Below are positions 3,763 to 64,000 of a DNA stretch of 64,000 bases, piece by piece. Origin of the DNA: Dokdonia sp. Dokd-P16 (lineage in GTDB: Bacteria > Bacteroidota > Bacteroidia > Flavobacteriales > Flavobacteriaceae). The position numbers were made by a program, and so were the translations under genes. The stretch covers positions 1,549,001 to 1,613,000 of the forward strand of contig NZ_CP029151.1 of the NCBI RefSeq assembly GCF_003095655.1. Reading direction: 5' to 3'. How positions within the stretch are numbered: the stretch's first letter is position 1; each line of letters begins with the position of its first letter. The notes under the pieces are model-generated. The model was not told where the DNA came from, did no database searches, and saw nothing but the letters and a program-made list of their open reading frames with translations.

Positions 3763-5556
3763 ATGAAGAAAAATTGGTTTTTAATACTCATCTGTGTGTT
3801 TGGTTTTTTCGCTTGCGCGAAAGCGCAAACAGAACAACTTGCTCGCAACTATGCAGATCAAGGTGAGTTTGAGAAGGCCATCATTTCTTATAAAAAAGCA
3901 TTACTCAAGCAGAAAGGCAATCACATACTCATCACAGGTCTTGTGAAAAGCTATCAACAGCTAGAAAAATACAAAGAAGCCGAAAGTGCGCTTATCGAAA
4001 ACCTTGCAGCTACTCGCGATAAAGGTTTTTATTATGTAGAGATAGGATACAACCATCAATTACAACAGCGAGATTCTATCGCTCAGGATTATTATAACCA
4101 AGTAATTGCAGGCATAGAAAGTAATACTATGAGTGCTTATCGTGCTGCTCGTGCATTTCAAGAGCACAACTTGCTTACAGAAGCTGTTCAAGCCTATGAG
4201 ATTGCGATGGCTAATAATCCACGAGCGAATTATAATGTCCAACTAGCGAGACTCTATGGGGAGCTAGGAGAGGTGGAGAAAATGTTTAATGCCTACTTAG
4301 ACCTAATTAATAAGAGTGAAAACTATGTGCAAGCCGCACAACGCAATTTTGCGCTTTATGTAAATGATGATCCGCTTAATGAAGCCAACATTATCTTTAG
4401 AAAGACCTTGCTAAAGCGATTACAAACAGAACAAAACGTACTTTATAATGAGTTGCTCAGTTGGCTTTTTATACAGCAAAAGGATTATAGAAAGGCATTT
4501 GCACAAGAAAAGGCTATTTATCGTCGTACAGAAGGAAGACATGAAGGCATCGTAAATCTTGCCGAAATTGCGATAGAAGAAAATGCTATTGAAGATGCAA
4601 CAGAGATATTAGAATTTCTAAGAGATAACGTCGTTGCGGGTAGTGTTAAGCTTTATGCAGAGCAACAGTTAATACAGCTAGCGGTAAAAACGGCAGTCAC
4701 GGCCGAAGATAAAGCGGTTGTTAAAACACGTTTTGAAGCTTTACTAGATCAATATATTAAGAAAGAATACACCGTGCCTTTGCAGATAGATTATGCACAT
4801 TTTCTTGCATTTAACATGGAGCAGCCGGATGAGGCAATTGCATATCTTAAAAAAGGAATTGAAATCCCTCGTGATAGATTTGACCACGCTCGTCTTAAGA
4901 TGGAGCTAGCAGATATTTTGGTGCTCACAGAGAAGTTTAATCAAGCACTTATCTATTATTCTCAAATTCAGAATGAGATCCAGAATAATGTGATCTCGCA
5001 GGAAGCAAGATTTAAGGTGGCAAAGACTAGTTATTATAAAGCAGATTTTGACTGGGCAGAGTCGCAACTCAATGTTTTAAAAGCTGGGGCGACACAGCTT
5101 ATTGCAAATGATGCCCTAGAGTTATTACTCGTTATTAGAGATAACTCCATGGATGATAGTTTACAGACGGCACTTAAAAAATATGCTAGGGCAGATTTAC
5201 TTGCTTTTCAAAACAAGTCTGAAGAGGCTATCGCATTATACGATGATATTTTGGAGAAGCACAAGGGAGAAAAGATAGAAGATGAGGCTTTGCTTTCTCA
5301 GGCAAAATTGTATGAGCGTAAAGAAGCTTTCGCGAAAGCAGAAAAAAATTACCTCACAATCATAGAATATTATAGCGATGGTGTACTAGCAGACGATGCT
5401 TATTATCGCCTAGCAAGATTATACGAAGGACCACTTAATGAGCCAGAAAAGGCAAAAAATAATTACGAGCGTATTATTTTTGACCTAGCAGACAGCATCT
5501 ATTATGTAGAGGCGCAGAAGCGCTTTAGGAACTTGAGAGGCGACGCAATTAATTGA
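3763..5556 (+). CDS. Exported TPR-repeat protein
   Basis: A 597-aa protein with an N-terminal signal sequence (MKKNWFLILICVFGFFACAKAQ) followed by helical tetratricopeptide repeats throughout: successive blocks with the A-x-x-x-Y-x-x-A/L pattern such as QGEFEKAIISYKKALLKQKG near the start and PEKAKNNYERIIFDLADS near the end. TPRs are protein-protein scaffolds; this one should act in the periplasm or at the outer membrane, partner unknown. Processing is ambiguous: A-K-A before Gln22 fits signal peptidase I, whereas Cys18 could serve as a weak lipobox. Two copies of the dispersed palindrome lie inside the gene, a decayed copy encoding ACAKA in the signal peptide and a perfect core encoding AFAKA near the C-terminus. 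It begins a close run with the DUF6090 gene, one base downstream. Confidence 0.85.
   Translation: MKKNWFLILICVFGFFACAKAQTEQLARNYADQGEFEKAIISYKKALLKQKGNHILITGLVKSYQQLEKYKEAESALIENLAATRDKGFYYVEIGYNHQLQQRDSIAQDYYNQVIAGIESNTMSAYRAARAFQEHNLLTEAVQAYEIAMANNPRANYNVQLARLYGELGEVEKMFNAYLDLINKSENYVQAAQRNFALYVNDDPLNEANIIFRKTLLKRLQTEQNVLYNELLSWLFIQQKDYRKAFAQEKAIYRRTEGRHEGIVNLAEIAIEENAIEDATEILEFLRDNVVAGSVKLYAEQQLIQLAVKTAVTAEDKAVVKTRFEALLDQYIKKEYTVPLQIDYAHFLAFNMEQPDEAIAYLKKGIEIPRDRFDHARLKMELADILVLTEKFNQALIYYSQIQNEIQNNVISQEARFKVAKTSYYKADFDWAESQLNVLKAGATQLIANDALELLLVIRDNSMDDSLQTALKKYARADLLAFQNKSEEAIALYDDILEKHKGEKIEDEALLSQAKLYERKEAFAKAEKNYLTIIEYYSDGVLADDAYYRLARLYEGPLNEPEKAKNNYERIIFDLADSIYYVEAQKRFRNLRGDAIN
3810..3825. 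repeat. Dispersed palindrome, decayed copy in a signal peptide
   Basis: CGCTTGCGCGAAAGCG, one mismatch from the 16-bp core. In the TPR gene it encodes A-C-A-K-A in the signal-peptide cleavage region. Confidence 0.6.
5326..5339. repeat. Dispersed palindrome, coding copy (AFAKA)
   Basis: GCTTTCGCGAAAGC, perfect 14-bp core, in the TPR gene. Confidence 0.85.
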
Positions 5557-5557
5557 T

Positions 5558-6211
5558 ATGGCAGAAAAGAAAAAAATAGACTGGCTCAATCATTTTCTGG
5601 AATTTATTGTGGTTGTTATTGGTATTTTGCTTGCTTTTCAGCTCAATACGTGTTCTCAAGAAAGGAAAGAGGGTGAACTTGTAGATAAACACATTGAAAA
5701 TATAATCGATGAAACTGTTTACAATCAGAATAACGTAAAGAGGAGTTTAAAGTCTTCTAATGCTATGCTAGCGCTAGTAGACACTCTAGCTGTAGTTGTA
5801 AATGATAAACAACGCCTTGAACGTGAGTACTGGCTAAGTTTTAAGTTACTTGCGGCAGATTATCTTTATATTAAAAAGAATGCTTACAATACACTTATGG
5901 CTACTGGCGACGTTAGGTTTATAGAAGATCCAGTACTTCAAAATGATATTATAGGTATTTATGAATATTATGGCTGGGCAGAGGGAGTAGATGAACAGAG
6001 TCGGAGTACAATGACAGAATATTATTATCCTTATCTGATAGATTATTCAAATATGACTTCGGATACACTGGAAAATACAGCTCCTTATGAGACTCAGAAA
6101 TTTAAGAATATCCTAGCGTCATATGGATACGCTTTAAGAGAACGAATTAAAAAACAAGAGGATCTTGATAATGTAATTCAAGAATTTTTAGAAAAATATA
6201 AAAAGAACTAA
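5558..6211 (+). CDS. DUF6090-type membrane-anchored protein
   Basis: 217 aa. After a short charged N-terminus there is one hydrophobic segment (residues about 13-30, FLEFIVVVIGILLAFQLNTC) and then a soluble helical region. The block LEF-x-V-V-V-I-G-I-L-x-A-F-Q-L-N is the hallmark of DUF6090 proteins, abundant in Flavobacteriia and of unknown function. Topology suggests a single N-terminal anchor with most of the protein on one side of the inner membrane. It starts one base after the TPR gene stop, and its own stop overlaps the next ATG by one base (TAATG at 6209-6213), so the genes are probably cotranscribed. Confidence 0.8.
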   Translation: MAEKKKIDWLNHFLEFIVVVIGILLAFQLNTCSQERKEGELVDKHIENIIDETVYNQNNVKRSLKSSNAMLALVDTLAVVVNDKQRLEREYWLSFKLLAADYLYIKKNAYNTLMATGDVRFIEDPVLQNDIIGIYEYYGWAEGVDEQSRSTMTEYYYPYLIDYSNMTSDTLENTAPYETQKFKNILASYGYALRERIKKQEDLDNVIQEFLEKYKKN

Positions 6212-7434: not shown

Positions 7435-7456
7435 CCCAACTACCAAAAATTACCCT

Positions 7457-9303: not shown

Positions 9304-9690
9304 ATGAAACCCATCAACATAAAAAAAAAGTACTCCAAATTTGATAAGCAATGGCATCCACACCAGATTGCCACGGTAGATGATATGCAAGTCTTGCTTG
9401 CTAAGATTTCTGGATCCTTTGTATGGCACAGTCATAAGGATGAAGACGAATTGTTTTATGTGCAAAAAGGAGTGTTAGAAATGCGCTTTCGCGAAAGCGG
9501 AAATCCAGAAAATGTGTGGTCTGAAATTGTAAATCAAGGCGAAATCATTGTCGTACCTAAAGGTGTAGAGCACTGTCCTACAACCAAAGATGGAGAGGAA
9601 GTACACCTACTACTTTTTGAGAAAACAAGTACTGCGCATACAGGTGAAGTAAGTCATGAAAAAACACAAACCAGCTACCCTAAAATTTAA
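9304..9690 (+). CDS. Cupin domain protein
   Basis: A 128-aa single-domain cupin. Cupin motif 1 is seen as FVWHSHKDEDELFYVQKGVLEMRF (metal ligands His-x-His and Glu), motif 2 as GEIIVVPKGVEHCPTTKD with the last His ligand. It is a cytosolic beta barrel that probably binds a metal; the substrate is unknown, and similar proteins are annotated as mannose-6-phosphate-isomerase-like or simply cupin. A copy of the dispersed palindrome lies in frame between the motifs and encodes RFRES. The 3' end overlaps the longest version of the next small ORF. Confidence 0.85.
   Translation: MKPINIKKKYSKFDKQWHPHQIATVDDMQVLLAKISGSFVWHSHKDEDELFYVQKGVLEMRFRESGNPENVWSEIVNQGEIIVVPKGVEHCPTTKDGEEVHLLLFEKTSTAHTGEVSHEKTQTSYPKI
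9484..9499. repeat. Dispersed palindrome, coding copy (RFRES)
   Basis: CGCTTTCGCGAAAGCG, perfect, in the cupin gene. Confidence 0.9.
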
Positions 9691-12336: not shown

Positions 12337-12669
12337 ATGGGAGTTACAAAGAGGCATATACATTCTATGAGGGCAAATCAGATTGCAGATCTGGCAAAGA
12401 TCCTCTCTAATCCGGCACGTGTGGCTATCATAGAATACATAGGTGATTGCGATGGTTGCCTATGTCAAGATATCTCAGAGAAAATAAGACTATCGCAGCC
12501 CACCACCTCTCAACACCTACAAGTAATTAAAAGAGCAGGAGTTTTAAAAAGCCAATTTAAAGGCAAGGCCCAATATTACAGTATAGATGCTCGCAAATGG
12601 GAGCAATTGCAAGGACTTTTTTACGATTTCTTTGAGCATACTAAATCAAAAATGTCTGAGAAGTCATGA
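12337..12669 (+). CDS. ArsR-type winged-helix transcriptional regulator
   Basis: 110 aa. A winged-helix DNA-binding domain spans most of the protein: helix 3 region CDGCLCQDISEKIRLSQPTTSQHLQVIKRAGVLKS is the typical ArsR recognition block, followed by the wing FKGKAQYYSIDA. A C-x-x-C-x-C arrangement (CDGCLC) sits at the position where ArsR itself holds its C-V-C arsenite-binding pair, so a thiol-based or metal-based switch is possible, although many non-metal ArsR proteins have scattered cysteines. Its TGA overlaps the decarboxylase ATG (ATGA at 12666-12669), so it most likely controls its own operon. Confidence 0.9.
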   Translation: MGVTKRHIHSMRANQIADLAKILSNPARVAIIEYIGDCDGCLCQDISEKIRLSQPTTSQHLQVIKRAGVLKSQFKGKAQYYSIDARKWEQLQGLFYDFFEHTKSKMSEKS

Positions 12670-14087
12670 GTACATCCTTATTAAAAAAAGCATACGATAG
12701 TTCACTTTTCAAAGAAGAAGGAACAGATCTAGTAAATCAGATATCTCAATACCTGTCTGACACTACCTCGGGAAAATCAGAGAAAGTCATCACGTGGACA
12801 ACACCAGAAGATGAGTATCAATTTTGGAAAGAGTATATTTCATCTAATCACACAACCTCAGACTTTTTTAAGACTGTTATCGCGAGGTCAATACACACGC
12901 ACCACCCTAAATATATAGGTCATCAGGTGGCACCTACGGTGCCTGTATCTGCTTTAGCCACACTATTGAGCGCGCAACTTAATAATGGGATGGCAGTATA
13001 TGAGATGGGAGCAGCATCTACTGCACTGGAGCGATTGATTATCGAGCAGTTTGCAAAAGTTATTGGCTTTGATCATGGTGACGGTTTTCTAACTTCTGGG
13101 GGAACGCTCGCAAACCTTACAGCATTACTCGCTGCTCGCAGAGTCATGGCAGAAGGTGATGTTTGGAATGAAGGACATAGTAGTAAACTTGCTATTATGG
13201 TATCTGAGGAGGCGCATTATTGCGTAGATCGGGCCGCTAGAATTATGGGCCTTGGGAGTGAAGGCATTATAAAAGTGCCTGCAGATGATACCTACAAGAT
13301 GCGCACAGAACTGTTAGATACTTACTATGATTCGGCTGTAGCAAAAGGTTATGAGGTGATTGCTATTGTGGGGAGTGCTCCTAGCACAAGTACTGGGGTT
13401 TACGATGATCTAGAAGCGATTCACGCTTTCGCGAAAGCAAAAAAAATATGGTTCCACATAGACGCAGCCCATGGTGGAGCAGCTATTTTTTCTCCTAAAT
13501 ACAAACATCTATTAAATGGAGCAGATAAAGCCGATTCTATAATTATAGACGGTCATAAAATGTTGGGTACAAGTGCGCTGGCAACGGCGGTTATTTTTAA
13601 GGAAAGTACGGCTAGCTACGCTACGTTTGAGCAAAAAGCACAATATCTCTGGGAAAAGAACGAAGATGCAGACTGGTTTAACTTAGCCAAAAGGACTTTT
13701 GAGTGTACAAAAAGTATGATGAGCTTGCGTTTTTATGCTATTATAAATGCATATGGATTGGCATTTTTCGATGACTTTGTTACAACACTCTATGATGCGG
13801 GAAGAGATTTCGGAGCTTTAGTTACTGAGCAGGAGGATTTTGAGATAGCACTTGATCCTGTTTCAAATATTGTTTGTTTTAGATATATAGCTGGGGCTGG
13901 TGATATCAATCGTATTAACCAGAACATACGAAAAGCACTACTGGAAGATGGAGAGTTTTATATTGTGGGAACCTCTTTACGTGGAGAATTCTATTTAAGA
14001 ACCACATTTATGAATCCTTTTACGACAACAAAGCATACAGAGCGCTTACTTAATGTTATTAGAGAAGTTGCAACTGGATTTCTTTAA
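12666..14087 (+). CDS. Group II PLP-dependent amino acid decarboxylase
   Basis: 473 aa, fold-type I PLP enzyme related to aromatic-L-amino-acid, glutamate and L-2,4-diaminobutyrate decarboxylases. Motifs: HTHHPKYIGHQVAP near the N-terminus, the phosphate-binding GFLTSGGTLANLTAL, SEEAHYCVDRAARIMGLG with the ring-stacking His, FHIDAAHGGAA with the Asp that contacts the pyridine nitrogen, and IIIDGHKMLGTSA with the PLP lysine. The substrate cannot be told from these. A copy of the palindrome encodes AFAKA just before the IDAAHGG block. It is translationally coupled to the ArsR-type regulator, which is unusual for a biosynthetic decarboxylase and hints at induction by a toxic or signalling amine precursor. 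Confidence 0.9.
   Translation: MSTSLLKKAYDSSLFKEEGTDLVNQISQYLSDTTSGKSEKVITWTTPEDEYQFWKEYISSNHTTSDFFKTVIARSIHTHHPKYIGHQVAPTVPVSALATLLSAQLNNGMAVYEMGAASTALERLIIEQFAKVIGFDHGDGFLTSGGTLANLTALLAARRVMAEGDVWNEGHSSKLAIMVSEEAHYCVDRAARIMGLGSEGIIKVPADDTYKMRTELLDTYYDSAVAKGYEVIAIVGSAPSTSTGVYDDLEAIHAFAKAKKIWFHIDAAHGGAAIFSPKYKHLLNGADKADSIIIDGHKMLGTSALATAVIFKESTASYATFEQKAQYLWEKNEDADWFNLAKRTFECTKSMMSLRFYAIINAYGLAFFDDFVTTLYDAGRDFGALVTEQEDFEIALDPVSNIVCFRYIAGAGDINRINQNIRKALLEDGEFYIVGTSLRGEFYLRTTFMNPFTTTKHTERLLNVIREVATGFL
13423..13438. repeat. Dispersed palindrome, coding copy (AFAKA)
   Basis: ACGCTTTCGCGAAAGC in the decarboxylase gene. Confidence 0.88.
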
Positions 14088-16153: not shown

Positions 16154-16170
16154 CGCTTTCGCGAAAGCGT
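16154..16170. repeat. Dispersed palindrome, intergenic copy
   Basis: CGCTTTCGCGAAAGCGT, just after the response regulator stop. Confidence 0.9.
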
Positions 16171-17021: not shown

Positions 17022-18836
17022 TTATTCCTCTTCTGTATTACGTTGATTATATTTTTTTTCAAGCTCTTCTTGAAACTCTTCCATAACAGGTTTTACGGTG
17101 CTCTCTGGTAGATCTGCGATGCGTATATACATAAGACCATCTATTGCATTATTAAATAGGGGATCTACATTAAATGCAATAACTTTTGCATTTTGCTTTA
17201 TGTATTTTTTAATGAGAACAGGGAGTCGTAGTGATCCTGGTTCTATTTCTTCAATGAGTTTATCAAACTTATTTAGATCTGCTTTACTTTCGTCAAAAAC
17301 AAACTCCTTATCGGCATCTTTGAGCTTTACTTTCCATTCCTTTTTAGGACGTATATATTGTGCGATATAAGGGTCGTAATAATGGGATTTCATAAATTCA
17401 ACCATCATCGACTTTGAGAAGTTTGAAAATTGATTCGAAATACTTACTCCACCTATGAGGTATTTATGCTCTGGAAAGCGCAATGTAGTATGTACAATAC
17501 CTTTCCATAAAAGAAAAAGCGGCATAGGTTTCTGTTGATACTCTTTTATGATAAAGGCACGACCCATTTCAATACTCTCACTCATCATCTTATGAAGCTC
17601 TGGCTCAAAACGGAAAAGATCTTGGAGATAAAACCCATCTATACCGTGCTCCTTATAAATCTTTGATCCTAGCCCCATTCTATAAGCTCCTGCAAGTGCA
17701 TTTGCTTCATTATCCCATAAGAACATGTGGTAATAATATCTGTCAAATTTGTCTAGATCAATAGCCTCATTTGTTCCTTCTCCTATGGCTCTAAACGTGA
17801 TTTCTCTAAGTCTTCCTATTTCTCTCAAAATGCTAGGCATCTCTTGAGCAGGAGCTAGATATACTTCATAGTTTTTACTAGTGAGCAGGCGACGATCATT
17901 TTCGCGCAAGCGTAAAATCTCGTCTTCTATAAGGTCGCTACTCATTTCTGTAACAATCTTTTTAGGTTCCTTTGGCGGTTTTAATTTTTGAGGAATGTCT
18001 TTTAAAATATTCTTTTTCTCAAAGGAATTTGCCAGCATGTACGTTTTCTTACGTAAAAACTCTGTAAAGTCTTCAAGTGACTCATGTTCCTTTTGAGCGG
18101 TTACCTTTATAGGGTTTCCTATACGCACCTTTATTACTCGGTTTTTTTGAGTGAGTAGTTCGCTAGGTAACTTAGCTGTTCTGAGTGTATCACTTAAGCG
18201 TGATAGTTGATAAAAGAGCCTACTGTTTTTTGCGTGAAAATAAATGGGTACAATAGGAACTTCTGCCTTTTTAACCAGCTTCATAGCTGCTTCTTCCCAA
18301 GGCTTGTCTATAATGAGCTTATCATCTTTATACGTTGAGACTTCTCCTGCAGGGAAGATACCAAGGGGATGACCGTCTCTAAGGTGAGATATCGCACTTT
18401 TAAAACCAGCGATACTTGACTTTATATCCTTCTTGTTTTCGAAAGGATTTACTGGCATTACATAAGGCTTAAGTGGCTCAATGCGGTGTAGTAAAAAGTT
18501 TGCGATGATTTTAAAATCTGGCCGTTGCTCAAGCATTAACTTGAGCAGTAATATGCCATCAATACCACCTAGTGGGTGATTTGATATTGTTACATAAGCA
18601 CCATCCTTAGGTAGTCTTTTTAAATCTTCTTCTGGGATTTCAAACTTGATATTAAATTCATCAAGCAATGCATTAAGGAACTCAAGATCTCCTAAATGTT
18701 TATTACGGTCGTAAACTTTATTGAGAGAAGAAATTTTAAGAATCTTCATTAATGACCACCCAGCAAAGGTGCCTATAAAGCCAAATTTATCGACATTTAT
18801 AGCTCGTGCAACTTCTTTGGCGGTGACTAGACCCAT
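17022..18836 (-). CDS. Bifunctional acyltransferase: PlsC-like plus GNAT (OlsF-like)
   Basis: 604 aa. The N-terminal half (about residues 20-270) is a lysophospholipid acyltransferase-type domain with VTISNHPLGGIDGILL as motif I and FPAGEVSTYKD as motif III. The C-terminal half (about 320-500) is an acetyltransferase-fold N-acyltransferase of the OlsB/hemolysin type (YRMGLGSKIYKEHGIDGFYLQDLFRF, SIEMGRAFI). This fusion matches the architecture described for OlsF of Flavobacterium johnsoniae and Serratia, which makes ornithine lipid in two acylations (N- then O-). Assignment from architecture, so ornithine or another amino acid could be the head group. Inner-membrane associated. A decayed palindrome copy encodes LRLREND between the domains. 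Confidence 0.8.
   Translation of the reverse strand: MGLVTAKEVARAINVDKFGFIGTFAGWSLMKILKISSLNKVYDRNKHLGDLEFLNALLDEFNIKFEIPEEDLKRLPKDGAYVTISNHPLGGIDGILLLKLMLEQRPDFKIIANFLLHRIEPLKPYVMPVNPFENKKDIKSSIAGFKSAISHLRDGHPLGIFPAGEVSTYKDDKLIIDKPWEEAAMKLVKKAEVPIVPIYFHAKNSRLFYQLSRLSDTLRTAKLPSELLTQKNRVIKVRIGNPIKVTAQKEHESLEDFTEFLRKKTYMLANSFEKKNILKDIPQKLKPPKEPKKIVTEMSSDLIEDEILRLRENDRRLLTSKNYEVYLAPAQEMPSILREIGRLREITFRAIGEGTNEAIDLDKFDRYYYHMFLWDNEANALAGAYRMGLGSKIYKEHGIDGFYLQDLFRFEPELHKMMSESIEMGRAFIIKEYQQKPMPLFLLWKGIVHTTLRFPEHKYLIGGVSISNQFSNFSKSMMVEFMKSHYYDPYIAQYIRPKKEWKVKLKDADKEFVFDESKADLNKFDKLIEEIEPGSLRLPVLIKKYIKQNAKVIAFNVDPLFNNAIDGLMYIRIADLPESTVKPVMEEFQEELEKKYNQRNTEEE
17899..17913. repeat. Dispersed palindrome, decayed coding copy
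   Basis: TTTTCGCGCAAGCGT, two differences from consensus, in the OlsF-like gene (LRLREND). Confidence 0.4.
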
Positions 18837-20264: not shown

Positions 20265-20282
20265 ACGCTTTCGCGAAAGCGT
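20265..20282. repeat. Dispersed palindrome, intergenic copy
   Basis: Full 18-bp ACGCTTTCGCGAAAGCGT between the GNAT and aspartate kinase genes. A weaker hairpin CGCTC...GAGCG lies nearby at 20201-20219. Confidence 0.92.
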
Positions 20283-26471: not shown

Positions 26472-26489
26472 ACGCTTTCGCGAAAGCGT
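26472..26489. repeat. Dispersed palindrome, intergenic copy
   Basis: Full 18-bp copy in the leader of the dCMP deaminase gene. Confidence 0.92.
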
Positions 26490-32110: not shown

Positions 32111-32128
32111 ACGCTTTCGCGAAAGCGT
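32111..32128. repeat. Dispersed palindrome, intergenic copy
   Basis: Full 18-bp copy eight bases after katG, before its terminator. Confidence 0.92.
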
Positions 32129-32249: not shown

Positions 32250-32266
32250 CGCTTTCGCGAAAGCGT
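32250..32266. repeat. Dispersed palindrome, intergenic copy
   Basis: CGCTTTCGCGAAAGCGT, second copy in the katG-M20 gap, beyond the terminator. Confidence 0.92.
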
Positions 32267-35806: not shown

Positions 35807-35824
35807 ACGCTTTCGCGAAAGCGT
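35807..35824. repeat. Dispersed palindrome, intergenic copy
   Basis: Full 18-bp copy 16 bases after the acyl-CoA synthetase stop. Confidence 0.92.
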
Positions 35825-38911: not shown

Positions 38912-38929
38912 CCGCTTTCGCGAAAATGT
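38912..38929. repeat. Dispersed palindrome, half-decayed intergenic copy
   Basis: CCGCTTTCGCGAAAATGT: left arm intact, right arm mutated, after the ankyrin gene. Confidence 0.5.
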
Positions 38930-40333: not shown

Positions 40334-42244
40334 CTAGCTCAAATTTTGAGTTTGAAAACGTACACGTAATACTTCTTGTAAATCGCGTAGTGGTTTAAAG
40401 CATCGTTTTAGTTTGAGACGTTCCTCCTTTGATAAATCGGCTAGTTTAATGAAGCGGCCGCTATCATCGTTGCGCAACCCTTGTTTGACTCTAAATTTAA
40501 GAAGTGCTTTAAATGCGTATGCGCAGCTTTCAAAGAGTTCTTTGTTTTGAGGTTCTAGCTCTGCAAGCTTTTCAAAACGTTCTGAGGTATGATTTATGTT
40601 GCGCAGGTTATGGTAGAGAGAAAGCACTCTGGCGCCACTTATTAATGGAGCCATAGCTCGATTTTTTATATCAAATTCGTCTTTATGTGCACCATCTGAC
40701 TCCACTAGAAAGTTGCGAAAGAAACTCACCGGCGGCGGATTTTTAAGTGCGTCCTTTGCCATAAATCTAAAAAAGACAGAAGATGTAGATAGTTGGTCAT
40801 AAATAGAGGCGGTAAGTTCTCCTACTAATTCCTGAGTTCCATAGACCATTCTATAGTCAAAGAATATTCCCGATAGCAACATGCTTTCTGGAGATGGATC
40901 TTTGATCCATGTAGAAAACTGAATTTTCCACTCAGAAAGTGATAAACAGTATAAAGGATTACTTCCCATCATATCTGCAGGGCAGTAATCATAACCTATT
41001 TTATGAAGGCGTTTATTCATCCTATTTGCTAGATGCAGAAAGTAATTTTTAGTCGCCTCATTATTTTCTGGTGACACATCCTCATAAATAAGAGCGTTAT
41101 CTTGATCTGTATACAGTAATTGCTCCTCTCGACCTTGACTTCCTAATGCAAGCCATGTAAATGGTACTGGAGGATTATGTGCCATCTTACTTAATGAGAG
41201 CTGCATAGTGCGTTGCATGAGAGCATCTTTAAGCTCAGAAAAAATATTAAGAATATGTGATATGGGTAAGTTTTGGTCTAGGTAGCGCTCAAGAAGAAGC
41301 GTTGCTTTTTCCCAAGTAAATCTGAGCATTTTGGTTTTTTTTGCTCGTTTTATTTCCTTTACGAGTTCGGCGGGACTGTTACCGTAAGCGACCACAATGT
41401 CATGCTTACTTAACACACCTATTACCTTTGTGCTAGCTGTACCGTCCTCGGTAATTATGAGGTGACTTATTCCATTTTTGAGCAATATAAGTTGCGCTTG
41501 AGTTACGGTTATCTTTGGAACGGCACAGACAACCTGAGTAATCATTGCATCGCGTACTACGTGATTACTAGAGATGATATTATTTGCAATAGCATTACGT
41601 AATTCTCGATTTGTGAGAACACCCACTGGTATTGAATCTGTAGTAATGACTAAACACCCTATGCGATGTTGTTGCATCAATCTGGCTGCTTCTTGTATGG
41701 AAGTTTCTGGGGAGCAAGTAATGATGGAGGTGCTATATCGTGCTTGTTCTAAGCCCAGTAAATGTGCGCCGCGTTCAGGCTCATAGGTGTTCAGTAATGA
41801 GCCACTTTGCTGTAAAGTATATGGATCTTTAATATTTGATGCAAAGCTAGCGATGAGGTAATTTGAAATGGCTTTGTTCGCTTTCGCGAAAGCGGAAAAC
41901 TCCTCCATAGGTAACGTATAGAGTATCGTCTCTTCCTTTGCCGTAGCAGTCGTTCTATAGGTATCTGTAGAGGTTACTTTAAGACCAAAAAGATCTCCTT
42001 CATCGCAAATGTCTACCACCTTAATCACATCCTTGGATGGTCTCGTAAGTTTTATAGCCCCTTGCTGAACGATATAAAAACGATCATTATAAGCTTGATC
42101 ACGATTAAAAATGACTTCATCCTTATCCAAGTAAAGTACAGAAGCTTGACTACAAATATCCAGCAAATCACCTTCGGCCATAAATTGAAATGGTGGAAAC
42201 TGTTTTAAAAAATCATAGATTCTTTGAGCAATTGTGTTTTGCAT
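40334..42244 (-). CDS. Cyclic-nucleotide-binding, CBS and DUF294 nucleotidyltransferase protein
   Basis: 636 aa, no membrane segment. Order: cyclic nucleotide-binding domain (about residues 1-130, YIVQQGAIKLTRPS), a CBS pair (about 165-300, AARLMQQHRIGCLVIT, HLIITEDG), then a nucleotidyltransferase domain (about 350-480) with LALGSQGREEQLLYTDQDNALIYED supplying the G-S-x-G-R-x-E and D-x-D catalytic motif, and a helical C-terminal domain. This looks like a sensor that changes nucleotidyl transfer onto an unknown target in response to cNMP and adenylate. A perfect palindrome copy encodes AFAKA in the cNMP-domain end. First gene of the three-gene operon. Confidence 0.92.
   Translation of the reverse strand: MQNTIAQRIYDFLKQFPPFQFMAEGDLLDICSQASVLYLDKDEVIFNRDQAYNDRFYIVQQGAIKLTRPSKDVIKVVDICDEGDLFGLKVTSTDTYRTTATAKEETILYTLPMEEFSAFAKANKAISNYLIASFASNIKDPYTLQQSGSLLNTYEPERGAHLLGLEQARYSTSIITCSPETSIQEAARLMQQHRIGCLVITTDSIPVGVLTNRELRNAIANNIISSNHVVRDAMITQVVCAVPKITVTQAQLILLKNGISHLIITEDGTASTKVIGVLSKHDIVVAYGNSPAELVKEIKRAKKTKMLRFTWEKATLLLERYLDQNLPISHILNIFSELKDALMQRTMQLSLSKMAHNPPVPFTWLALGSQGREEQLLYTDQDNALIYEDVSPENNEATKNYFLHLANRMNKRLHKIGYDYCPADMMGSNPLYCLSLSEWKIQFSTWIKDPSPESMLLSGIFFDYRMVYGTQELVGELTASIYDQLSTSSVFFRFMAKDALKNPPPVSFFRNFLVESDGAHKDEFDIKNRAMAPLISGARVLSLYHNLRNINHTSERFEKLAELEPQNKELFESCAYAFKALLKFRVKQGLRNDDSGRFIKLADLSKEERLKLKRCFKPLRDLQEVLRVRFQTQNLS
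41879..41894. repeat. Dispersed palindrome, coding copy (AFAKA)
   Basis: CGCTTTCGCGAAAGCG in the DUF294 gene. Confidence 0.9.
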
Positions 42245-46499: not shown

Positions 46500-46517
46500 A
46501 CGCTTTCGCGAAAGCGT
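46500..46517. repeat. Dispersed palindrome, intergenic copy
   Basis: Full 18-bp copy upstream of glyS. Confidence 0.92.
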
Positions 46518-51377: not shown

Positions 51378-54300
51378 TTAGAAGAAAGCTTTAATCTGGA
51401 TATTACCCGTATGAATAGTTCGTGTTTCTTCACTTTTACGCCCAAAATATGATACATTCAAATCTAAAAATTTGGTAATCCTTTTTTGTGCAATAGCATT
51501 CCAAGTAAAATTTGTTCCTGGTTGTAATCCTTCTAATATCTGATATGCAACTGGACTAAATGCGCTTCCGCGAAAATCGTTATTGATATACGTAAACTCC
51601 CCAGTTAAAGATACTTTTTCTAAATCTGCTAATGCAAAGGAGATGCCAAGATTCTGCTGGTCAAGCTGTTCCTGCTCTCCTGATGTGTTATTCTTATTTT
51701 GATATTCATAAAATAGCGAAACTCTCGACTGTTTGCCAAAGAGATATGAGAGCTTAGGATTAATACCGATATTATCGATGCTAAAACTACGAGAGATAAA
51801 ATTCTCTGCACTACTCACGGTCGAGCCTAAATCTCCTTGAGCATTAAAGAGCCAGCTCTCTTTAATTTTATGTAGAAAATTGAGTTGATGACTTTGTATC
51901 TCACTTTCTTGCAGCCCTGTAGAGAGAAGAATTTTAGAGGTATTTGATAGAAATGAATAGGAGGTCGTGTAACGCTGTTTTCCTCTATTAAAAAATAAGG
52001 TATTTCTAAAGTTGACTGTAGCACCTATTTCATTGTCATCCTCATTAAATGGGTTGAGGCTAAAATCGTTATCAGTGCGCAATACTCGTTTATCTAAGAT
52101 ATAGCTAGACTGATTGTAAAAGTGGGAAAGAAACTTTTTTATTCCTTTAAGCCCAGACCACTGTCCGGGTTGTAGGGTGAGTTGCTGGCTTAATTTATTT
52201 TGATGAGTTCTTACAAATACTTGGTTTGGTAGTAGTATTCTCACGTAATCTGCTTGATCTTGAAACTGCGCTATCTCAAACTCATCGAGTTCTTGTATAC
52301 CATCTCCGTTATAATCATTCCATGTATGGGTTCCTTGACCTTCATCTACTTGAATAAAAGTAAATTCTTGCTGAGGTTGGGTACCGCTATTGGTTTCAAA
52401 AACCGTATTAAGACGGATGATATCATTTGCAAATCGTTGATTATACAGCAATCTTGAGTTGAGCGAATTCTCATCTTCTCGTTGATCTTCATAGCTAAGA
52501 TTACGGTAATTTAAAAAGAGCGAGACGTTCGTTTTCTCATTCTTTATTAATTGAGATTTTAAGTAATATGTATTGGATGTATTTACACGTGCTATGCGAT
52601 TAAGTCGCACACTATCATTTACACGATATTTATATCCAGCTTCCATATAGACGTTTGTGCTGTCTCCCACGCCAGCAAAAGCTTTGTAAGCGCTAAATCG
52701 CTGACTGCTTGCCGTTATAGAGTCATTCCTTTTTGTGACTCTAACGTTGTCCTCCATGTTAAATGCAGCGCCTATCCAAGATTTTTTAAAACCATAAATG
52801 GCATTTACGTCTGCTCGTGTAAAGTTTGTATTGAGTTGCACATCATCTGTACTAAGTGTACTTGCATTAATCGCAGTTCTTAAATTACCAAGTTCCCAGT
52901 TGGCATTTAGACTGTGTCTGTAGCCATTGTAGGCGTCTTGAAAGTTTAGATGTTGAAATTGATAGGTAATTGCTCCTTGTTCTGTACGAACATAATTGAG
53001 TCCTACCGTAGTAAAGTGTTGAGTTCCTAATAAAGTTCCTCCCGCTTGAGCTAGTGAGTTCTCGACATTCCAATCTCGGTTAAATTCTATATTGTAAAGC
53101 CCTTCAATACTTCTAAAATCTTCTTGTATAAAATCCCAACTCCCAAAAGCGCGAAGGCTGGATAAACTATCCTTTTTATATAACAGCTGATTTATATCTA
53201 CATGTGCAGCATAGCCATTATTATCACCGTCATCTAGTGTAGAAAATGTGTTGGTGTCATTGTTACTTCCCGCAGCTTCAAAGTTTATTGTAGTTTTTTC
53301 TGAAGGTGTGTAGCTTCCATTTATTACACCTAATTGTAGTACAGTAGGGGCAAAAAGTTGTACTTGAGGAGCAAAAGAACCTTGCGAAATACCATTTATA
53401 GGGGCAACATATTGAAATGTGCGCTGTAGCGTATTTGTCGTGCTTAAAATATAATCTCCTTGGTTTTCTCCTACATTAGTAAAGCGTACTTGAAATAAAT
53501 CTTCTCCAGGATCAGCGCTAAATTCAAAAACCTCGACTCCATTTACAACTATCTGCCTGTAGAGAATCTTATTTTCATCAAAGGTATCTGAGATTGCGCT
53601 GGGAGCAATCATTTCTTGCATATCGTCACCAGCTTCTTGTAAAATAGCAACCTGTTCGGAGGTGAGATTTTGTTGTAGTGGTTGATTTTTAGCATCACTT
53701 TCTGAATATACGTGAGCAGCTATTTTGAATTTATCGCTTTCGCGAAAGCTTCCTCCTCCATACGCCAGAAAACGTGTGTAACGTCGTTCAGAAAATTGAT
53801 AAGCAACATTGATACGCATCTCACTAGTGATGGGATAAGTGGCATTAAATCGTATCTCTCCAGCATTATAATCGATAATATAGTCTTCGCTCTCTCCACG
53901 TGTGAGCGGGATGCCATTAACATAAACAGTCTCACTCCCAGAAACTACTAGAACGAATAGCTCACCATTAGGCCCAGTGAGTTTATAGGGGCCTTGATTT
54001 CCTTCCTGCCCTGTAAATGTACTTTGTGTAAAAACACCTCGTACTAAAGCTCCAGAAGCATGTAGATCTGTTTGTTTATCATCTGAGTGATTCAAGGTAC
54101 CCCCTAGGGATAGCCCTTGTATTTTCTTTGTAAATCTGCTGAAATAGGTGTCCCTGTTTTCTAAATTAATATCACCAGCTCTTATATTCCAGTTATCAGA
54201 AAATAGTTCAATAAACACTTGATCAAACTCATCTAGATTTTGAGAGTAGCCACCTTGCTGGCTAGGTATATTTGCATCTTGTATAGAAGCGCGTAAGGTA

Positions 54301-54803: not shown

Positions 54804-54844
54804 CAATAGTAAAACTCTAGGCTGAGGTAAATATTACAATGACT

Positions 54845-55691: not shown

Positions 55692-56684
55692 ATGAATACA
55701 ATGTTTAAAAAATCCCTTCTTATAATACTTGCGATAAGCGCACTTACTTCTTGCGTTCCTGCAAAAAAGTTTAAAGATCTTGAAGCAAGCTATAGCAGGT
55801 TGCGCAAGGATAATCGTAGCCTTGAGGATAATGTAAAGGACTTAAAAGCTGAGCTTAAAAAGACGAACGCAGTTTATGATAAAGTCTCAAAAGATTTAGG
55901 CTCAAGTATAATTAGAGTAGAGGAGTTAGAAGGGGAGTACGCTTCCGCGAAAGCTAATCTAGAACAACTACAAGCAAGTTATAACGCACTAGAATCTAAT
56001 AGTAGTGCGACTATAGCCGAAAATTCTCAGAAAAACAGACAACTTCTAGCCGAACTAGAGACAAAGCAAAATGATCTTGCTGAAAAAACTGCTGCTCTTG
56101 AAGCGGAACGTACTCGTCTTGAAAAGTTACAAAAGGATCTAGCAGAACGCTCTGCGAGAGTAGATGAGCTAGAAGGTGTAATCGCAGCAAAAGATGCTAC
56201 AATGAGAGCGCTTAAAGAATCTATCTCAAAAGCACTTACAGACTTTGAAGGAAAAGGACTTACCGTAGAGCAACGTGATGGTAAGGTATATGTGTCGCTA
56301 GAAAACAAGCTTTTATTTGATTCTGGTAGCTGGACCGTAGGTGCAAATGGGACAAAGGCGGTAAAGCAACTAGGTAGCGTACTTGCAGATAACCCGGACA
56401 TCGCAGTGCTTATCGAGGGACATACAGATAATGTGCCTTACGGAGGTAGCGGAAATCTAGCTGGTAACTGGGATCTATCTGCTAAAAGAGCGACAGCTAT
56501 TGTTGAAATTTTACGCACAAATAGGAATATAGACCCTAAAAACCTAACAGCAGCAGGCCGTGGAGAATATGCTCCCGTAGCTGAAAATGATACCGCAGAG
56601 AACAAAGCAAAAAATAGACGTATAGAAGTAATCCTAACACCTAAGCTTGATGAGGTGACTGCTTTGCTTAATGATATTGATTAG
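55692..56684 (+). CDS. OmpA-family lipoprotein with coiled coil
   Basis: About 330 aa. Signal peptide with lipobox LTSC (MFKKSLLIILAISALTSC), then a coiled coil (about residues 25-165, ARVDELEGVIAAKDATMRAL), then a C-terminal OmpA-like peptidoglycan-binding domain (about 200-320): LFDSGSWTV, LIEGHTDNVPYGG, LSAKRATAIVEILRTN and GRGEYAPVAENDTAENKAKNRRIEVIL. It probably ties the outer membrane to the cell wall. The ATG at 55701 would remove three residues and looks equally good. A one-mismatch palindrome encodes ASAKA in the coiled coil. Confidence 0.9.
   Translation: MNTMFKKSLLIILAISALTSCVPAKKFKDLEASYSRLRKDNRSLEDNVKDLKAELKKTNAVYDKVSKDLGSSIIRVEELEGEYASAKANLEQLQASYNALESNSSATIAENSQKNRQLLAELETKQNDLAEKTAALEAERTRLEKLQKDLAERSARVDELEGVIAAKDATMRALKESISKALTDFEGKGLTVEQRDGKVYVSLENKLLFDSGSWTVGANGTKAVKQLGSVLADNPDIAVLIEGHTDNVPYGGSGNLAGNWDLSAKRATAIVEILRTNRNIDPKNLTAAGRGEYAPVAENDTAENKAKNRRIEVILTPKLDEVTALLNDID
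55939..55954. repeat. Dispersed palindrome, one-mismatch coding copy (ASAKA)
   Basis: ACGCTTCCGCGAAAGC in the OmpA lipoprotein gene. Confidence 0.6.
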
Positions 56685-57838: not shown

Positions 57839-57856
57839 ACGCTTTCGCGAAAGCGT
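57839..57856. repeat. Dispersed palindrome, intergenic copy
   Basis: Full 18-bp copy between convergent genes, just after the terminator. Confidence 0.92.
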
Positions 57857-57872: not shown

Positions 57873-59018
57873 TCATGTAAATGGAACGGGCTTTATAGCA
57901 GTTTTATATAGATATCCTTGTAAGCTATCATGAGTACGTATATGAAACCAGTTACCCGTTTTTTCTAATAGCAGAACAGTGTCTCTTCTCTTCAATGTGC
58001 CTACTCTTTCTGAAGTTGAAGTTGGTGATAATCGCATCGTACCATTATTTTTAAGAACTCCTAAATTGCTAGAGAGCGAATCTAAAATTGTGGGCATTTC
58101 CGTTTGTTTAATATATGGATATGGGTTAATAGCTCCCGTACGATTATAAATGCCAAAATGTAAATGTGGAGGTGTCGTTCTGGCATTCCCAGTATTGCCT
58201 ACTAACCCAAGTGTATCTCCTATTTTCACGCGCTTTCCAGTCGTAGCGATGATGCTATCTAAGTGCGCATAATAAAGGGACTGGCCAAAAATGCCATCAC
58301 GTAACCACAGCTGTTTACCTCCTAGACCGCGATTACCTGTGGAGGATACCATACCATCAGTAATTGCTACGACGGGGGTTCCTCTTGCTGCGAAAATATC
58401 TACACCCTCATGGCTACGTTTACCGCCACTTCTAGAAGCTCCCCAGAAGCTTTGAATGGCCTTATTATCTTTTCCGCTTACTGGAAAGCCGTACTGTGGT
58501 GTTGTGTAAATTTTTAATGTAAAGGATGAGTTTGTGCCTATTTCAGGCTGTATGAGGAGTGTGTATAATCCTGACGCCGTAATTTTGGTAGTAAATTTTC
58601 TCTCATTAGGAGCATTAGATAATCTAGGCGTTGGATTTATTATAGAATCATTCTCCCATGTAAAAAGGTCAAGAAATATGGCGGTTGAGTCTACGTTGTT
58701 TTCAACTTCCGCATGAAAAATCTCACCTGCAGCGAGTGTGAATGTATAGCGGTAAGGGATCAAATTGTTAGAAGAATAAGTCCCTACAGTGGTATACGGA
58801 AGACCCGAGAGTACGTTTTGGTCTTTAGGTAGTACTTTTTTTTGATACGCTTTCGCGAAAGCGGAATTCCAAGAGTTATAAATACTATCATCTTTCTCAA
58901 AGCCACGAGCATAAACTTCGCGAGCCGAAGGTTGCGTGATGGCATCTGTGGCTTTTTGAATTTGATTACAGCTTATTATGGCAAGAAGTAATAAAGTGTA
59001 TAGAATCTTTTTAAGCAT
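57873..59018 (-). CDS. M23-family (LytM) peptidase lipoprotein with SH3b domain
   Basis: 381 aa. Lipoprotein signal with IISC (MLKKILYTLLLLAIISCNQ). The LytM peptidase domain (about residues 190-300) has HEGVDIFAARGTPVVAITDG (first His and Asp ligands), HLDSI and PPHLHFGIYN (H-x-H). It should cleave peptidoglycan cross-links or other glycine-containing peptides in the envelope. The C-terminus (about 320-380, MRLSPTSTSERVGTLKRRDTVLLL) is a bacterial SH3 domain. A palindrome core encodes AFAKA after about residue 50. Confidence 0.92.
   Translation of the reverse strand: MLKKILYTLLLLAIISCNQIQKATDAITQPSAREVYARGFEKDDSIYNSWNSAFAKAYQKKVLPKDQNVLSGLPYTTVGTYSSNNLIPYRYTFTLAAGEIFHAEVENNVDSTAIFLDLFTWENDSIINPTPRLSNAPNERKFTTKITASGLYTLLIQPEIGTNSSFTLKIYTTPQYGFPVSGKDNKAIQSFWGASRSGGKRSHEGVDIFAARGTPVVAITDGMVSSTGNRGLGGKQLWLRDGIFGQSLYYAHLDSIIATTGKRVKIGDTLGLVGNTGNARTTPPHLHFGIYNRTGAINPYPYIKQTEMPTILDSLSSNLGVLKNNGTMRLSPTSTSERVGTLKRRDTVLLLEKTGNWFHIRTHDSLQGYLYKTAIKPVPFT
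58847..58863. repeat. Dispersed palindrome, coding copy (AFAKA)
   Basis: ACGCTTTCGCGAAAGCG in the M23 peptidase gene, 1 kb from the previous copy. Confidence 0.9.
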
Positions 59019-60511: not shown

Positions 60512-60530
60512 AAAATGAGTAATCTGCTTG

Positions 60531-61777: not shown

Positions 61778-61824
61778 GTGGGAATAACTTTTTAGTTATT
61801 AGGATAGTCCTAAAATATAAAAAA

Positions 61825-62781: not shown

Positions 62782-62783
62782 CG

Positions 62784-63134
62784 TTAGTTGAGCAAGTTTG
62801 TTTCTTCATTAGGGAAGCATAAAGTAGGTTTAAACTTTTTAGCTTCTTCTACTTCCATAAAGGCGTATACAATTAAGATAAGCGTATCTCCTTTTGCAAC
62901 TTTACGAGCAGCAGCACCGTTTAGGGTGATTTCTCCACTCTTTCTTGGTCCAGGGATTGCATACGTCTCAAGACGTTCTCCGTTTGTTACGTTTACAATT
63001 TGTACACGTTCTCCTTCAATTATGTTTGAAGCGTCCATCAAGTCTTCATCAATGGTAATACTTCCAATATAATGTAACTCGGCACCCGTTACTTTAACGC
63101 GGTGTATTTTTGATTTTACAACATTTACTAGCAT
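62784..63134 (-). CDS. panD: Aspartate 1-decarboxylase
   Basis: 116 aa. Makes beta-alanine from L-aspartate for pantothenate and coenzyme A. Made as an inactive pro-protein that cleaves itself between Gly24 and Ser25 (HYIGS in the visible sequence) to form the catalytic pyruvoyl group. Other conserved blocks: [48 protein letters not shown]. It lies between panC and the flippase with 21- and 2-base gaps. Confidence 0.97.
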
Positions 63135-63155
63135 AGTGCAAAGGTAATAATAAGT

Positions 63156-64000
63156 TTAATTTAGGGCTATATTATCTATTAGTCTAATCTCACCAGCATA
63201 AACGGCAAGAAAAGCTCGGTATTGTTGGTTTTTACGCTTTCGCGAAAGCGTACTTAAATTTTTGATATTTGCAATCTCAAAGTATTCAAGTTCGAGACCT
63301 TCTTTTTCCTCAAAAACCGTTGAAACATATTTTTTCAATTGTAATGCAGATTGTGAGTCAAAATTATTCTTCACATACTGCAGCACTTCATAAATAAAAG
63401 GCGCAATAGCAAGTTGATTCTCAGTAAGTCGTGCATTACGACTGCTCATTGCGAGACCATTTTCTTGTCTATGTATAGGGCAACCTATGATTTTTAAAGG
63501 TAATTTTTCTTTTTCTACAAGCTTACGCACAATGGCAAGCTGTTGATAATCTTTCTCTCCAAAATATGCTTTATCCGGATTTACTTGTCTAAAAAGGAGA
63601 TTTAAAACAGTCCCTACACCATCAAAGTGTCCTGGCCTGTGCTCTCCCTCCATAACCTTCTCTATGGCTCCAAAGTTATATGGGGTAGAGGAAACCTTAT
63701 TCCCATAAACTTCCGTAGCAGTTGGTGCGTATACTACCACTTTATCTCCATAATGCGCTAGAAATTCTAGATCTTTTTTAAGAGTGCGAGGATACTTGTC
63801 TAAGTCTGAAATATTATTGAATTGTGTAGGGTTAACAAAAATGCTTACTATAATTAAGGCACAATCTTTGAGTGCATAATCAATAAGTGATGCATGTCCA
63901 TGATGTAGGGCGCCCATTGTAGGGACAAAACCTACGTATTTGCCATTGCTTTTTGCTTGATGAACAATCTTAGAAATCTGTTTATGAGCTGTTATTGCTT
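63156..64000 (-). CDS. panC: Pantothenate synthetase, partial (5' end beyond window)
   Basis: Joins pantoate and beta-alanine using ATP. The frame continues upstream of the internal Met at 63917 to the right edge (27 more codons, AITAHKQISKIVHQAKSNGKYVGFVPT), so the N-terminus lies outside. Motifs: FVPTMGALHHGHASLID (HIGH), FVNPTQF, FGEKDYQQLAIVRKLV, GCPIHRQENGLAMSSRNARL. The palindrome falls near the C-terminus and is read as TLSRKR. Precedes panD by 21 bases, so the two steps that meet at beta-alanine are encoded together. Confidence 0.95.
   Translation of the reverse strand, partial: AITAHKQISKIVHQAKSNGKYVGFVPTMGALHHGHASLIDYALKDCALIIVSIFVNPTQFNNISDLDKYPRTLKKDLEFLAHYGDKVVVYAPTATEVYGNKVSSTPYNFGAIEKVMEGEHRPGHFDGVGTVLNLLFRQVNPDKAYFGEKDYQQLAIVRKLVEKEKLPLKIIGCPIHRQENGLAMSSRNARLTENQLAIAPFIYEVLQYVKNNFDSQSALQLKKYVSTVFEEKEGLELEYFEIANIKNLSTLSRKRKNQQYRAFLAVYAGEIRLIDNIALN
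63234..63251. repeat. Dispersed palindrome, coding copy (TLSRKR)
   Basis: Full 18-bp copy in panC, the only one in this third frame. Confidence 0.92.

Follow-up and report, generated by a model that had tools for sequence, protein, structure and literature searches.

Bacteria are known to have only a few kinds of oligonucleotide signal that extend through the whole genome. The Chi sites that we know of are short, non-palindromic and read on one strand, and in E. coli their density is close to one per 4.5 kb. To our knowledge, none of the DNA uptake sequences described so far (USS or DUS) is palindromic. Binding sites of the parS/Noc type number a few to some dozens. Among palindromic repeats, HIP1 (GCGATCGC) of cyanobacteria has no agreed function, and for each HIP genome surveyed a methylase with a predicted target within HIP is listed, according to the available part of the report (PMC4390886). 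An 18-nt palindrome of Caldithrix abyssi (AACCGTTnnAACGGTT) is present in 38 exact copies, which the authors argue to be intergenic and strand-oriented, and its conservation is confined to the 18 nt in the accessible text of that paper (PMC5317091). In the same family as the genome studied here, Riemerella columbina prefers its own DNA in uptake, and the candidates listed in the accessible sections of the report are A/T-rich k-mers only (PMC7965970). Here we describe a palindrome of Dokdonia sp. Dokd-P16, for which a literature search found no published description, and its copies in the window, that is, the whole 64-kb stretch of DNA that was analysed.

Results

Abundance in the genome and in relatives

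The sequence-only reading of the window had counted 16 copies with a perfect core, and CTTTCGCGAAAG is present exactly 16 times (Table 1). All of these extend to the 14-mer GCTTTCGCGAAAGC, 13 reach the 16-mer and seven the full 18-mer ACGCTTTCGCGAAAGCGT. About five decayed copies had also been mentioned, and exactly five places match a pattern with one good arm. Placement by eye against the ORF list agrees with the statement that eight perfect copies are intergenic, six of them with the full 18 bp.

Table 1. Copies of the palindrome in the window, with their context and their fate in aligned relatives.
Feature	Position	Strand	Context and conservation
Decayed copy, one change	3811..3824	.	
Perfect 14-mer	5326..5339	.	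within ORF 3763-5556 (+)
16-mer	9484..9499	.	within ORF 9304-9690 (+)
Perfect 14-mer	13425..13438	.	within ORF 12666-14087 (+); identical in 5/5 aligning relatives; flanking codons differ in 4/5
16-mer	16154..16169	.	intergenic; 14-mer retained in 3/3 aligned relatives with diverged downstream flank
Decayed copy, 3 changes	17898..17911	.	
Full 18-mer	20265..20282	.	intergenic
Full 18-mer	26472..26489	.	intergenic; 14-mer retained in 6/7 aligned relatives; flanks mostly rewritten in 4/7, one of those four (G004) with truncated site
Full 18-mer	32111..32128	.	intergenic
16-mer	32250..32265	.	intergenic
Full 18-mer	35807..35824	.	intergenic
16-mer	37544..37559	.	within ORF 36558-37700 (+); missing in G016, G003 and G004 without indel, that is, by substitution
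Decayed copy, 2 changes, both in the same outer arm	38914..38927	.	perfect in G016 and G003, both without the 37545 site
16-mer	41879..41894	.	within ORF 40334-42244 (-); 14-mer retained in 5/5 aligned relatives
Full 18-mer	46500..46517	.	intergenic; 14-mer retained in 5/5 aligned relatives
Decayed copy, 3 changes	51564..51577	.	
Perfect 14-mer	53736..53749	.	within ORF 51378-54806 (-)
Decayed copy, one change	55941..55954	.	
Full 18-mer	57839..57856	.	intergenic, flanked by convergent ORFs
16-mer	58848..58863	.	within ORF 57873-59018 (-)
Full 18-mer	63234..63251	.	within ORF 63156-63917 (-), close to ORF 3' end

The palindrome is real and genome-wide. There are 808 copies of GCTTTCGCGAAAGC in the 3.62-Mb genome, or about one per 4.5 kb, so it is by no means restricted to the window, and a control pattern read backwards has 0 copies. 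The frequency had been claimed to be far beyond chance, and a 464-kb genome sample puts it well above the Markov level, with 98 exact copies against 0.001 expected at order 3. The expectation is 0.008 at order 4 and reaches 0.97 at order 5, because the order-5 model already absorbs the motif. Against its 98 perfect copies, the same sample holds 18 with one mismatch. The description of the palindrome as HIP1-like holds, as it is highly iterated in coding and intergenic DNA; like HIP-type palindromes it lies far over the Markov expectation (on the 464-kb sample) and is found genome-wide.

All 17 same-genus relatives searched hold between 369 and 905 copies each. Among 397 genomes of the family, six exceed 400 copies and are spread over three genera, 74 others have 1-19, and related genera without the palindrome exist. 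Nonlabens probably shares it with Dokdonia, and the motif carriers group together in a tree, weakly (single-origin support 59/86). Single matches in unrelated phyla, from a genome scan of 257 Gb, are at chance level, about a thousand matches to a 14-mer being our estimate at equal base use. Equivalent palindromes of other genera were surveyed in 15 samples of 20 kb, two of them from carriers, with one thin 20-kb sample per genus: none of the 13 non-carrier samples had a palindrome of at least 12 bp with three copies, and the three palindromes found with two copies were all AT-rich. In phage and plasmid collections, the 34-nt consensus gave only partial matches of 17-20 nt (E 0.3-4, chance level), which fall in Vibrio, Mycobacterium and Weissella records.

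Placement and spacing

Coding and intergenic counts are approximate because the ORF caller was simple (longest non-overlapping ORFs). With it, 57 of the 98 sites in the 464-kb sample fall in coding sequence and 41 are intergenic, in about 8% of the bases; in a 440-kb stretch, 68 of 115 sites are within coding sequence. By type of intergenic region, there are nine sites in 5.1 kb of convergent, nine in 11.0 kb of divergent and 22 in 21.3 kb of co-directional spacers.

The spacing had been described as fairly even, which was true in the window (mean 3.9 kb, CV 0.47 against 0.91 for random placement, P 0.002) and over 440 kb, where the CV was 0.57 and 0.54 in two species against 0.99 at random, none of 3000 simulations was as even, and gaps shorter than 1 kb numbered 7 and 5 against 26 and 30 expected. 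Elsewhere the evenness is interrupted. In the initial 500 kb of the genome, covered by the first 100 sites of the list, the CV was 1.07 against 0.98 at random and the dispersion in 20-kb bins was 1.04. Sites there are overall no more even than random, since stretches of 37, 27 and 20 kb have none, although gaps below 1 kb remain rarer than expected (6 against 18).

Shape of the site

The footprint is dyad-symmetric and spans about 50 bp, consisting of a core of 18-20 bp and a shoulder of about 15 bp on each side. Each shoulder, on the strand whose 5'-to-3' direction leads into the core, is nearly without C and GT-rich towards the core; the shoulders are seen at coding and intergenic sites and in both Dokdonia and Nonlabens. 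T is found before the core and A after it. The flanks share composition, and their position preferences are only weak. Among 289 sites, no consistent left-right covariation was found beyond the core (over 30 positions, z ranged from -1.7 to 2.7, with the maximum at position -2), which suggests independent reading of each half-site rather than a long hairpin.

Conservation and turnover

Purifying selection maintains the 14-mer at the DNA level, even within genes. In a 78.6%-identical relative, 60 of the 74 aligned sites are unchanged where 7.4 would be expected. Where the peptide of a coding site is identical, the exact motif DNA is retained in all 36 cases. Among 10833 control windows of 5 codons, likewise with an identical peptide, the DNA is identical in 1543 (14%); at 15 nt, these windows are slightly longer than the 14-nt motif. 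When 47 coding sites were aligned to G016, nine had changed both peptide and motif, and two had changed the peptide and retained the motif. The 14-mer, which between genes is extended to TACGCTTTCGCGAAAGCGTA, is a sequence-specific DNA signal that occurs about once per 3-5 kb round the chromosome. A word kept inside genes by selection is surprising whatever its role, and several hundred coding stretches would be concerned when 57/98 is extrapolated.

Sites are also replaced. Of the 14 sites whose motif is imperfect in G016, ten have a G016-specific site less than 2.5 kb away, compared with 37% of randomly chosen places (P 0.009), a test that is partly confounded because both site sets avoid the shared sites. 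Between genera, nine coding sites are comparable, with one position clearly shared and one probably, and the density is similar. Moreover, the 464-kb sample holds 87 decayed copies with 1-3 mismatches, 29 of which have both outer bases of one arm altered. Among 36 alignable variant sites, 21 retain the variant core, eight are perfect in the relative and seven are lost; thus, there may be more functional sites than perfect ones.

Discussion

We infer, tentatively, that the palindrome is the site of a putative clade-specific, dimeric chromosome-organising protein. Such a binder would have been acquired a single time, by the ancestor that Dokdonia, Nonlabens and a third genus share, and each subunit would read one half-site and wrap or bend the DNA of the shoulder. 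Single sites are lost, others arise nearby and the density holds, which suggests that it is the whole array that matters. The likeliest job would be chromosome organisation or maintenance, by a nucleoid-associated protein or by one that marks resident DNA. Many dyad sites, even coverage and selection are what an array of nucleoid-protein sites should have, and all are found here, except that the first 500 kb, as a whole, are not evenly covered. The presence of the motif in temperate-looking phage contigs, and its absence from the one Nonlabens phage examined, also speak for this reading. Several points count against this reading: uptake or Chi-like signals also predict even spacing, clade restriction and strong conservation; strand-asymmetric avoidance of a single base along 15 bp is not typical of ordinary groove reading; the single origin is weakly supported; and the first 500 kb contain the long gaps.

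A sharp, dispersed and clade-limited oligonucleotide, present in hundreds of coding and intergenic copies with degenerate flanks, is also what a DNA uptake sequence looks like, which marks self DNA for natural transformation and accrues through biased uptake and recombination like USS and DUS. Sites that are evenly spaced along extended regions and come and go by substitution agree with such a role, as does the preferential uptake of own DNA in Riemerella columbina (PMC7965970, in its available part). However, of the machinery of type IV pilus uptake, the PilB/PilT-type ATPase (PF00437) exceeded the cut-off in only four of the 14 carriers, this genome not among them, and it is just as scarce in non-carriers (4 of 22). 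The motif also occurs in temperate-looking phage contigs with phage transposase or integrase genes, and it is palindromic, unlike the USS and DUS that we know of, which makes an uptake sequence unlikely. A Chi-like signal of self-recognition would stop or regulate AddAB (or another DNA-degrading complex), with resident DNA repaired and foreign linear DNA destroyed, and as a palindrome it would act from either end. The density similar to that of E. coli Chi, the strand-asymmetric shoulders that are GT-rich towards the core, and the one isolated phage examined, Nonlabens phage P12024S, which has no motif within 2 mismatches in 35.7 kb, speak for it. An AddAB/RecBCD-type complex is present in carriers and non-carriers alike: the AddB-type nuclease domain PF12705 was found in 36 of 36 genomes, and this genome has a second match in a 1062-residue frame about 5 kb away, taken to be AddA from its size and place only. 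Thus, the domain is not discriminating, being equally common in genera without the motif; known Chi sites, moreover, differ from this motif in form, and we regard a Chi-like role as unlikely.

In Elhai's cyanobacterial model of HIP, an orphan methyltransferase acting on part of the core, together with repair bias, makes and keeps the sites. The core here includes CGCG and TCGCGA, which are plausible targets, and a methylase matching part of HIP is predicted in every HIP genome in the available text of PMC4390886. The proposed methylase target was not supported for the two families tested: C5 methylases (PF00145) are lacking in eight of the 14 carriers, this genome among them, and N6/N4 methylases (PF01555) were over the cut-off in 2 of 14 and are missing from this genome. 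The conserved 14-18 bp also exceeds the length of a methylase target, and this model is distinctly improbable. As a perfect inverted repeat that is denser between convergent ORFs, the palindrome could also form a hairpin in transcripts (ACGCUUU-CGCG-AAAGCGU) as a terminator, processing or stability signal, but such an RNA-level element is very improbable in view of the 68 coding sites among 115, the order of T before and A after the core, which is the opposite of a terminator T tail, the arms without consistent covariation beyond the core, and the lack of any Rfam match at gathering thresholds. The earlier suggestion of a mobile palindrome had to be given up, since substitution, with no indel, accounts for the gain or loss of a coding site, and the copies do not bring their flanks with them. 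High copy number and intergenic enrichment would suit a REP-type repeat spread by a Y1/RAYT transposase, but Y1_Tnp is lacking in ten of the 14 carriers, among them this genome, over half of the sampled sites are coding, sites stay while their flanks diverge, and the flanks share little beyond composition; this origin is scarcely credible. The likeness of the TTTC/GAAA half-sites to parS and Noc sites did not lead to a link either. TGTTYCACGTGRAACA, which we take to be the parS form, is present separately at least once in each of the 22 genomes searched, a claim that rests on the listed sequences, as counts with 2 mismatches alone are no higher than those of the reversed-pattern control (in this genome, 3 against 2). 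A single ParB, with no Noc-like second copy, is found in 13 of the 14 high-copy genomes; together with the separate parS-type sites and the 808 copies, this rejects a parS/Noc site.

If the site does belong to a chromosome-organising protein, it may, still more tentatively, represent a new code of bacterial chromosomes. A clade-gained dimeric protein would need a docking site every few kb, so that about 800 near-identical 50-bp sites would have been written by selection into genes and spacers, lost ones would be replaced nearby, and chromosome-resident mobile DNA would carry sites too. As the carriers are marine genera with cultured strains, the putative reader protein can be isolated and deleted.

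Comparison with known systems

With parS and Noc sites, the motif shares a palindrome with TTTC/GAAA arms, but the spacing of the arms differs and the sites number 808. It is like Chi in density and in the GT-rich strand leading into the core, whereas it is long and palindromic and Chi is short and one-directional. USS of Pasteurellaceae and DUS of Neisseriaceae are alike in their hundreds of sharp copies, degenerate flanks, clade limitation, making and loss by substitution, and tolerance in genes; in contrast, the motif here is a palindrome, and the PilB/PilT-type motor is below the cut-off in this genome and in 9 of 13 other carriers. The palindrome of Caldithrix abyssi is also long and dispersed, but here there are 808 copies, over half of them in genes (in the samples), with shoulders, as compared with the accessible text of PMC5317091. 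HIP1 and the alternate HIPs are likewise very highly iterated, dispersed and lineage-specific palindromes; they belong to another phylum, have other sequences and a core of 5-8 bp instead of 14-20 bp, and number 1000-2000 per Mb in the available part of PMC4390886 against about one per 4.5 kb here, where there is no consistent methylase (two families) and the strand-asymmetric shoulders of about 15 bp are present. The present case is sharper than HIP1: its core has 14-20 bp, single mismatches are few, selection acts on the DNA inside genes, the sites are regularly spaced along extended regions, and there are related genera without it.

Results

Perfect GCTTTCGCGAAAGC occurs 16 times in the window (13 times as the 16-mer and 7 times as the 18-mer) and five further copies have a decayed arm or centre, in agreement with the 16 perfect and about five decayed copies of the sequence-only reading. 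Its claim that this is far beyond chance also holds: a 464-kb sample, made of the window and twenty 20-kb stretches distributed round the chromosome, contained 98 copies where an order-3 Markov model predicts 0.001, and one-mismatch copies numbered only 18. The motif is not confined to the window, which spans bases 1549001-1613000 of the chromosome: the genome (3,623,447 bases, single contig) has 808 copies, and the reversed-read control gave none genome-wide. The window matches no Rfam family at gathering thresholds and contains no tRNA.

The consensus continues beyond the 14-mer as TAC...GTA (counting outward, -1 C 87%, -2 A 63%, -3 T 72%; n=123 sites). In the flanking shoulders, positions -4 to -18 have 2-13% C against a background of ~18%, with ~25% G and ~40% T; farther out the depletion fades by about -35. 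The footprint is ~50 bp and dyad-symmetric. C-poor shoulders were found when the 126 coding and the 71 intergenic sites were taken separately, and likewise in named sites from Dokdonia (50) and Nonlabens (36), the latter including those of Flavobacteria bacterium BBFL7. Left and right shoulders showed no consistent covariation (z from -1.7 to 2.7 over 30 positions in 289 sites), so the two halves are apparently recognised separately.

Each of the 17 genomes of the same genus that were searched carries 369-905 copies, the two lowest counts coming from genomes 78% and 85% complete. Among 397 genomes of the family, 317 have no copy, 74 have 1-19 each and six exceed 400 (two of the host genus, three of g11 and one of a third genus, g210). 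At least 111 stretches of named records contain the motif; the 80 matches listed include 31 from Dokdonia, 20 from Nonlabens and 4 from BBFL7, and from these genus names we infer that g11 is Nonlabens. In a tree of seryl-tRNA synthetases from 30 genomes, the nine high-copy genomes fell on the same side of one weakly supported branch (59/86; seen in 56% of bootstrap trees).

Some low-copy genomes (G141, G118, G254, G127) have motif clusters with a recurrent 933-bp spacing, and pairs exactly 933 bp apart recur across genera otherwise without the motif. In an Aquimarina record (Table), the TolC-like ORF holding such a pair is followed by ORFs resembling, by eye, copper-resistance genes (multicopper oxidase, P-type ATPase). 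The pairs and this context suggest moving islands acquired from the carrier clade. Separately, ParB-domain frames of ~600 aa occur in several genomes with small motif clusters and in some without; they perhaps belong to integrative elements.

Intergenic DNA is favoured, with 41 of the 98 sites of the 464-kb sample in only ~8% of its bases, and 47 of 115 sites of a contiguous 440-kb stretch in 41 kb. Such sites lie between convergent, divergent and co-directional ORFs. Of the coding sites in the 440 kb, 42/68 are in the frame encoding Ala-Phe-Ala-Lys. The even spacing noticed from sequence alone was borne out in the 440 kb (CV 0.57) and in 400 kb of G016, a 78.6%-identical relative (CV 0.54), both against 0.99 for random placement and with 0/3000 simulations as even; the twenty sampled stretches had 2-6 sites each (dispersion 0.25, P 0.0004). 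It failed in the first 500 kb of the genome (CV 1.07; dispersion of 20-kb bins 1.04) because of long site-free gaps. The long chromosomal stretches without the perfect motif (Table) are perhaps recently acquired DNA. A second, local palindromic repeat, CCCGATAGCTATCGGG, has six copies with partly conserved flanks in one 20-kb stretch, possibly a cassette array or duplicated gene family.

Features with coordinates (window positions unless a genome, contig (C) or extracted locus (L) is named; G000, genome under study)
Feature	Position	Observation
Motif site	16155	Perfect in 3/3 aligned relatives despite diverged downstream flank
Motif site	26474	Perfect in 6/7 aligned relatives, including 3/4 with flanks largely rewritten
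Coding motif site	37545	Missing from three relatives, no indel
Decayed motif site	38914	Perfect in G016 and G003, both without site 37545
Shared coding site, Nonlabens tegetincola	L107: 6765	Same codons as counterpart in 440-kb stretch of G000
933-bp motif pair, Aquimarina	L071: 157-1103	Both copies within TolC-like ORF
Long stretches without perfect motif	G000:C1 ~82-119 kb, 258-285 kb, 407-427 kb	
CCCGATAGCTATCGGG repeat	L276 (G000:C1:2580001-2600000): 2297, 3869, 5481, 15072, 18685, 19594	
ParB-domain frames	G029:C18:76088; G141:C1:2364602; G254:C1:1204417 and 1043601; G010:C21:474723; G034:C2:628740	

Comparison of the 440 kb with G016 gave 76 aligned blocks at 78.6% identity. Among the 74 of 115 sites that could be aligned (41 unaligned sites being excluded), 60 are perfect in G016 against 7.4 expected from flank identity; the other 14 comprise two of one-arm variant type, seven substituted (two by a single base) and five with indels. 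Inside the anchored range lie 32 of the unaligned sites; for 24 of them a partner lies no more than 150 bp from the predicted position, compared with 16% for random positions. The peptide is kept at 36 of the 47 alignable coding sites (68 in total), and all 36 retain the exact motif, whereas control 5-codon windows with unchanged peptide are identical in DNA in only 1543/10833 cases; this is direct evidence for DNA-level selection inside genes. At nine of the 47 both peptide and motif changed, and at two the peptide changed and the motif was retained.

Site positions shift while density stays. For ten of the 14 aligned sites imperfect in G016, a site specific to G016 lies no more than 2.5 kb away, compared with 37% for random positions, a partly confounded comparison. 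Of 32 motif-bearing frames found in loci of Nonlabens, BBFL7 and g210, nine have a relative within the 780 kb of G000 that were compared; one clearly and one probably share the site position, and seven do not. The protein sharing a site with N. tegetincola (68% identity over 1416 residues) is among the few in which the position is shared this deeply.

Discussion

The data establish the motif's sequence and spread, selection on it, its spacing over long stretches, its shoulders and its turnover. For its role, we tentatively favour, at somewhat less than even chance, that the motif is the docking site of a putative dimeric protein, which would organise or mark resident chromosomal DNA, may wrap the shoulder DNA and may have been gained a single time. 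A DNA uptake signal is a less likely alternative; no PilB/PilT-type ATPase over cut-off was found in 10/14 high-copy genomes (carriers), G000 among them. A Chi-like signal appears slightly less probable still; the AddB-type nuclease domain occurs in 36/36 genomes, carriers and non-carriers. With regard to methylation, 8/14 carriers have no C5 methylase and 12/14 no N6/N4 methylase over cut-off.

Viral contigs also bear the motif. Among 80 viral loci listed, 28 with 28-45% GC were considered, and sites with shoulder C of at most 10% were present in 12 of them, from 10 contigs. A scan of 20 proteins, drawn from five loci, found genes resembling a phage transposase and its DNA transposition partner on two motif-bearing contigs (one also has tail genes, on another piece), and an integrase together with a tape-measure protein on a third. 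Thus some phages able to reside in a chromosome seem to carry the signal. Nonlabens phage P12024S (35.7 kb) has no copy within two mismatches, and no integrase among its annotated genes. The IMG/VR contigs behind L163/L180/L185, L216, L176 and L193 are phage-like and motif-bearing, most with C-poor shoulders (L193 weaker); the motif on such contigs is possibly useful to predict hosts.

We saw no published description among the matches listed from the open-licence PMC literature, searched by letters, for Dokdonia/Nonlabens palindromes and for Flavobacteriaceae repeats (10 of 171 matches listed), and no account among those listed on Flavobacteri uptake sequences, HIP-type palindromes or Dokdonia natural transformation; one letter-based match deals with words missing from the genomes of humans and other animals. 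The main text of Elhai 2015 (PMC4390886) has neither "Bacteroid" nor TTCGCGAA. The motif is not a REP/RAYT repeat, the Y1 transposase being missing from 10/14 carriers. Nor is it a parS or Noc site, of which its half-sites reminded the sequence-only reading: a separate parS-type sequence, TGTTYCACGTGRAACA, has at least one copy in each of the 22 genomes searched, and 13/14 carriers encode a single ParB.
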